Shown here piece by piece: positions 45,147 through 45,228 of a stretch of DNA of 45,228 nucleotides. The position numbers were made by a program, and so were the translations under genes. The notes beneath the pieces are model-generated. The model did no database searches, was not told where the DNA came from, and saw nothing but the letters and a program-made list of their open reading frames with translations. Numbering within the stretch: the first letter of the stretch is position 1; the number at the start of each line of letters is the position of its first letter. Source of the DNA: an uncultured Brachyspira sp. (GTDB taxonomy: Bacteria > Spirochaetota > Brachyspiria > Brachyspirales > Brachyspiraceae); the NCBI RefSeq assembly GCF_944388875.1, contig NZ_CALXKQ010000022.1:1-45228 (forward strand), in the 5' to 3' direction.

Positions 45147-45228
45147 ATGATAAGACAGACAGACAGACAGACAGACAGACAGACAGACAGACAGACAGAC
45201 AGACAGACAGACAGACAGACAGACAGAC
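45147..45228 (+). CDS. Start of a gene with a tetranucleotide tract, cut by window end
   Basis: An ATG at 45147 with AGGA ten bases upstream and a good promoter opens the frame MIRQTDRQTD..., which continues as Arg-Gln-Thr-Asp repeats to the last base. Because the repeated unit is four bases, all three frames of the tract are open, and the frame entered after it depends on copy number. The function of the protein lies beyond the window. Confidence 0.65.
   Translation, partial: MIRQTDRQTDRQTDRQTDRQTDRQTDR
45153..45228 (+). repeat. AGAC tetranucleotide repeat, at least 19 units
   Basis: Nineteen perfect AGAC units fill 45153-45228 and run into the window edge, so the true number is larger or equal. 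The tract starts two codons after the ATG at 45147. Confidence 0.97.

Follow-up and report, generated by a model that had tools for sequence, protein, structure and literature searches.

The leader at the end of the contig

The window analysed here is the entire contig C22 (45,228 nt) of an uncultured Brachyspira sp., taken from a draft assembly of 3.11 Mb (G000). At its right-hand end a radical SAM gene is followed by a leader, a short open reading frame with a ribosome-binding site, an ATG and a tandem repeat whose unit length is not a multiple of 3. The leader runs off the contig and is continued on contig C37 (locus L009), where a terminator hairpin and a glycosyltransferase gene follow.

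Window 44175-45083, + strand: radical SAM gene (PF04055) that precedes the leader and is conserved across 24 of the 26 Brachyspira genomes
Window 44957-45083, + strand: 3′ end of the radical SAM gene, present again at L009 about 1239-1365, beyond the glycosyltransferase, with 98% identity
Window 45090-45118, + strand: predicted sigma-70-type promoter TTGTAT-N17-TATAAT (TTGTAT 45090-45095, 17-nt spacer, TATAAT 45113-45118), from the sequence
Window 45137-45141, + strand: ribosome-binding site AGGAA, 5 nt upstream of the ATG, from the sequence
Window 45147-45228, + strand: 5′ part of the leader, ATG (45147-45149) ATA (AGAC)19 or more, running off the contig end
Window 45153-45228, + strand: AGAC tetranucleotide tract, 19 perfect units, continued at L009 1-76
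L009 108-144: terminator hairpin, between the leader and the GT8 gene
L009 178 (ATG) to about 1187: GT8 glycosyltransferase gene, frameshifted

The promoter, ribosome-binding site, ATG and at least 19 AGAC units described in the first-pass annotation are thus all found. The tract begins six bases past the A of the ATG and reaches the last base of the window (AGAC x19.0, 100% match, TRF), and the leader translates as M I (R Q T D)n. Markov-shuffled sequence yields zero tracts as large. A similar promoter and ribosome-binding site precede the orthologous leaders in B. murdochii (G017) and B. hampsonii (G003).

Joining the tract across contigs

Contig C37 starts with 18 full AGAC units, which represent the opposite end of the tract. 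Runs of six or more perfect AGAC units occur in the 3.11 Mb assembly solely at the end of C22 and the start of C37, and the resulting gene order (radical SAM gene, leader, glycosyltransferase, repeated radical SAM end, PTS gene) is identical in the joined G000 sequence and in G017. Because the tract is unique in the assembly and synteny with G017 holds, we infer that C22 joins C37, this being a deduced rather than an assembled join.

The unit number is best taken as a lower bound. At least 9 of 29 inspected contig starts fall within tracts of about 76-84 nt, as do the C22 and C31 ends. Since many G000 contigs begin or end in tracts of 4-, 5- or 7-nt units, the end of the contig at this point and the count of 19 units are probably set by a limit of the assembly, and the true tract would hold 19 units or more. 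The contigs with ends in such tracts are C1, C5, C6, C14, C21, C22, C24, C25, C26, C31 and C37, and a large share of the contig breaks in G000 falls in 4-, 5- or 7-nt tracts. With so many breaks in repeat tracts, short-read Brachyspira assemblies may be systematically broken at phase-variable loci.

The terminator and the glycosyltransferase

Beyond the tract, C37 reads (AGAC)18-AGATAGACTAAAGAATC, the hairpin AACCCTATACTGCTA...TGGCGGTATAGGGTT, then TTTGTGTTT, and finally ATGAATAAAGTAATG, the start of the glycosyltransferase; AGATAGACTAAAG sits between the AGAC tract and the hairpin. The hairpin comprises 15 pairs with a folding energy of -21.5 kcal/mol, matched by 0 of 20 shuffles, and an independent scan ranks it as the top terminator of C37. 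An intrinsic terminator is therefore present in G000 between the leader and its target gene. An Rfam search gave no family match, and the exact motif GGGTTTTTGTGTTT occurs in the genome at the window's locus only.

The gene beyond the leader encodes a GT8 glycosyltransferase (PF01501) and has an RBS-like sequence of its own. This agrees with the earlier suggestion that the gene past the edge might be surface-related, whereas the phasevarion methyltransferase offered in the same sentence is absent. The target gene is intact in G017 (PF01501, E 5e-15) and broken in G000, where a 1-nt deletion near nt 241, read from the draft assembly, causes a frameshift.

The leader-glycosyltransferase cassette is enclosed by two 127-bp direct repeats derived from the radical SAM 3′ end, and a PTS transporter gene comes next after the second copy on C37. 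The repeats (44957-45083 and L009 1239-1365) match at 98% in G000 and at 97% in G017, compared with 87% from one species to the other. From their sequences they look as if they had been homogenised or repeatedly duplicated. Recombination between them could lead to loss of the cassette.

Reading frames in the window genome and its relatives

When the sequence is extended past the AGAC tract, a long frame is open in none of the three phases: the frames end 3, 8 and 22 nt after the tract, so that each is closed no more than 25 nt past the final unit. The first-pass annotation had pictured a tract inside a long coding sequence, in the Haemophilus and Neisseria style, and this in-ORF model fails because no long frame follows the tract in any phase. 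Relative to the hairpin, the stops lie 27, 22 or 8 nt upstream, and none of the three frames reads into or through it. The frame that would otherwise be open is closed by a TAG arising from one AGAT unit.

B. murdochii has an intact version of the locus, with 8 AGAC units. With this number the leader has 46 codons, crosses the hairpin and stops 5 nt into the glycosyltransferase gene, which is itself intact; 7 units would place the predicted stop 8 nt before the hairpin, and 9 units 22 nt before it. The three B. murdochii frames thus end at -22, -8 and +78 nt relative to the hairpin, one far upstream and one beyond, whereas G000 keeps only the class that stops just upstream. Comparison of the 15 stem pairs between G000 and G017 finds 3 pairs changed on both sides, 2 changed on one side and 0 broken; since the substitutions leave every pair intact, hairpin pairing is maintained.

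At the B. hampsonii locus there is no tract, and a recognisable terminator is absent; a 36-codon leader overlaps the start of the glycosyltransferase, which contains a stop. In G009 and G013 the tract is likewise missing and the glycosyltransferase copies are broken. A glycosyltransferase-based search of genome contigs returned two relatives only, and within-species copies of the window's exact leader locus were not found, so comparison within a species was made at the level of the class, on B. hyodysenteriae plasmids.

A family of repeat-bearing leaders across Brachyspira

Tracts were surveyed in 0.8 Mb of G017 and in 0.53 Mb of G000, the latter sample being biased towards contig starts. Each sample holds 16 tracts of at least 24 nt, and the unit is 4, 5 or 7 nt in 32 of 32. 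Units of 2, 3, 6 or 8-12 nt are absent among these 32, and shuffled sequences contain no tract of that length. Many of the sampled tracts lie close behind an ATG, with a GT8, GT2, methyltransferase, epimerase, pyruvyltransferase or lipoprotein-like gene downstream. For 8 of 20 tracts, one of the frames has its stop at the next gene's start, where 1.6 would be expected (P about 3e-5).

A looser motif search downstream of the terminator led to a GACAA leader family with strong hairpins. A covariance model built from the hairpins of six GACAA leaders, with the tract left out, matches 20 of 26 Brachyspira genomes. Just upstream of the match, a tandem tract is present in 22 of 27 inspected loci outside the training set, with at least 6 units in 20 of 27, against a random-window background of 1.1% for a tract and 0.4% for at least 6 units. 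All 29 leaders examined have a frame that stops at least 10 nt before the hairpin. A frame that enters the hairpin is present in 26 of 29, against an expectation of 13.2, a count over related rather than independent copies that causes the corresponding P value to be overstated. Joint alignment of the AGAC leader with the GACAA and ACAAC leaders is poor (mean identity 63%), so that the AGAC leader resembles these in layout while homology to them is unproven.

Unit number also differs between orthologous leaders. Before a gene starting M(V/I)YDYIIIGAGIYG, AGACC is present in 14.6, 11.6, 7.2 or 13.4 units depending on the species, and in one species the leader carries 8 units of GCAGA instead.

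Several further loci display related arrangements. Genes next to the radical SAM gene bear ATG-adjacent tracts as well, ATG(ACAAA)n in G031 (L034) and ATGA(CAAGCAT)n in G035 (L016). B. murdochii possesses another GT8 gene (7050-7775, minus strand), oriented divergently from the radical SAM gene that precedes the leader, with an AAGC leader tract of its own (L011:7828-7869) in which a frame ends at the glycosyltransferase start. An intercistronic form is seen on contig C13 of G016 (L010:9025-9111, minus strand), where AGAC x21 forms part of the 3′-terminal region of a methyltransferase ORF (8944-10260) and is followed by hairpin-like sequence and another methyltransferase-like ORF; the unit is that of the window's tract, here at the opposite end of a gene. 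Also in B. murdochii, AAAC x35 stands right after an ATG (L118:2965), in frame with an ORF of about 510 codons that has no Pfam match, and this is a candidate for a classic in-ORF phase-variable gene. In G028, from another spirochaete family, the ATG of a restriction-methylase-like ORF of 948 aa (L012:5299-8145) is followed at once and in frame by an AGAC tract, the classic phase-variable restriction-modification layout that the first-pass annotation had imagined for the window.

Length variation in B. hyodysenteriae

Sister tracts were compared on nine B. hyodysenteriae plasmids, where they occupy the 3′ ends of glycan genes. Across strains, AACAG is present in 7, 9, 7, 12, 11 and 13 units and ACAGA in 8, 9, 9, 9, 10 and 10, while AGACC at an ATP-grasp gene ranges from 6 to 13 units by strain between matching flanks. 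This length polymorphism belongs to the class of sister tracts and not to the window's own tract, and individual lengths may include assembly errors.

The changes in unit number alter where translation would end. Frames through the AGACC tract end at +3, +94 or +155 nt, with a terminator at +61; strain WA1 is in the short frame and most other strains read into or through the terminator. Frames through the AACAG tract end at +6, +11 or +58, with a hairpin at about +43 (a position taken from the printed sequence); two strains read into the hairpin and four stop before it. In these plasmids the arrangement suggests that the upstream gene would itself act as the leader.

A probable frame-gated attenuator

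A proven precedent exists in the pil1 locus of Streptococcus gallolyticus, where a leader ORF contains GCAGA repeats with a terminator behind it, and changes in unit number allow the ribosome to reach and destabilise that terminator (PMC3894217). Leader stops 4 bp before or inside the pil1 hairpin led to high expression, and stops at least 28 nt before it to the low or heterogeneous type (PMC3894217).

The AGAC tract is likely to be the body of a leader-peptide gene whose frame gates an intrinsic terminator guarding the GT8 gene, with the G000 copy probably a relic of such a device. This reading draws on the anatomy of the locus, the compensatory changes in the hairpin, the dependence of the frame on unit number, the genus-wide family of modules and the length variation of sister tracts. 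A leader gene with its own promoter, ribosome-binding site and ATG would be placed ahead of the terminator and the GT8 gene, and gain or loss of 4-nt units, presumably by slipped-strand mispairing, would change its reading frame. In some frames the ribosome would halt at least 20 nt before the hairpin, the terminator would fold and the glycosyltransferase would be off. In another frame the ribosome would reach or cross the hairpin, termination would be prevented, and the surface glycans of the cell would presumably be affected. Translational coupling may add to this, because the B. murdochii leader in its on-frame ends 5 nt inside the glycosyltransferase.

By analogy with the pil1 stop distances, the B. 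murdochii copy would have been sequenced in its on state. The G000 copy would retain by the same rule one weak on-phase, stopping 8 nt before the hairpin, though its glycosyltransferase is broken. The proposal of a switched locus therefore stands for the class, in which sister tracts differ in length from strain to strain, while the copy in G000 itself looks dead. It is probably a relic, in view of the AGAT unit that shuts the read-through frame and of the frameshift in the glycosyltransferase; with no frame crossing the hairpin and a 1-nt deletion in the target, it may be without function.

A decayed relic is a reading with about even chances. On such an account, G000 holds a dead leader and a pseudogene, and the tract expands neutrally, which would suit both the closed read-through frame and the frameshift, as well as the broken glycosyltransferases of G003, G009 and G013. 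The frameshift, however, rests on a draft assembly, and the promoter, ribosome-binding site, ATG and 15-pair terminator all persist beside 18-19 visible units that are perfect throughout. Decay also leaves the intact B. murdochii copy and the genus-wide family unexplained. For the G000 copy alone, it is compatible with the attenuator.

Translational coupling without attenuation is a more tentative proposal, with chances clearly short of even. The on-frame leader would end at the next start and deliver ribosomes there, the off-frames would leave the gene untranslated, and the hairpin would be incidental. Coupling is suggested by the overlap of the leader stop with the glycosyltransferase start in the intact B. 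murdochii copy, likewise in two G016 glycosyltransferase copies, and by the sampled leaders noted above that end at the downstream start, many of which have no strong terminator. The general lack of a strong terminator in many sister leaders counts against attenuation, and because of it coupling could be the general principle instead. Against coupling alone, compensatory changes preserve the pairing of the hairpin, terminator-bearing leaders form a conserved family, and the glycosyltransferase has its own RBS-like sequence.

A classic phase-variable gene, with the tract inside a long coding sequence and switched by frameshift, is very improbable here. The position of the tract directly after the ATG would fit, the style is seen in the spirochaete G028, and two sampled B. 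murdochii tracts are in frame with ORFs of about 380-510 codons, but the early closure of all three frames behind the AGAC tract and the GT8 gene downstream led to rejection of the in-ORF switch and of the methyltransferase with it. Least probable of all is a switch through promoter spacing or DNA structure, the kind represented by NadA in Neisseria meningitidis. Transcription can be tuned by repeats close to promoters (PMC2791445), but here both the predicted promoter and the ATG come before the tract, for which reason this switch was rejected, and read-through frames are commoner than expected.

Comparison with known systems

Like lic, mod and lex2 of Haemophilus influenzae, the frame-gated attenuator proposed here has an ORF with a tetranucleotide tract at its 5′ end, has a glycosyltransferase as its target, and presumably varies by slipped-strand mispairing. 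The lex2A/lex2B pair consists of a repeat-bearing short ORF ahead of a glycosyltransferase gene. In lic and mod the tract is part of the long coding sequence and a terminator is absent, whereas here a terminator separates the tract from a long gene that begins at a start codon of its own. With attenuators of the trp type it shares the control of an intrinsic terminator by translation of a leader peptide; in those, stalling of the ribosome senses a metabolite, whereas here the signal would be the frame, as set by the repeat number.

The intercistronic tracts of Brachyspira also recall the C-terminal sequence switching of Helicobacter canadensis, in that they stand at the 3′ ends of genes, where the C-terminus changes (PMC2823697). 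The H. canadensis repeats are homopolymers, and terminator gating of the next gene is not described in the title or abstract (PMC2823697), whereas the Brachyspira units are of 4, 5 or 7 nt.

The closest parallel is with pil1 and pil3 of S. gallolyticus (Danne et al., 2014; PMC3894217). Both systems have a leader ORF built on repeats with a unit that is not a multiple of 3, an intrinsic terminator and surface genes beyond it; in both the frame sets the leader stop either well before or at or inside the hairpin, and unit number varies by strain (here in sister tracts). One Brachyspira leader, in G001, even uses the same GCAGA unit as pil1. Unlike pil1 and pil3, the Brachyspira modules belong to another phylum, have units of 4, 5 or 7 nt, occur many to a genome and mostly precede glycan genes rather than pili. 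In addition, the B. murdochii leader in its on-frame would have its stop within the target gene, and there are intercistronic versions in which the 3′ end of the upstream gene would be the leader.

Tandem-repeat phase variation has hardly been discussed for Brachyspira, and no mention of it was found in the Brachyspira genome papers searched. There is about an even chance that Brachyspira carries dozens of repeat-gated attenuators per genome, mainly at glycan and surface genes, and that the tract-bearing last codons of one gene serve as the leader of the next, making a combinatorial polarity switch for surface sugars. If so, the frame of each gene in a cluster would randomly decide the transcription of its neighbour. 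A genus-wide family of this kind would equip these gut spirochaetes, pig pathogens among them, with a large set of surface-sugar genes switched on and off at random, and a mechanism known from one streptococcus would become a recurrent solution. As a class the Brachyspira modules are a variant of the S. gallolyticus kind and, on confirmation, would make up a large phase-variation system in the genus.
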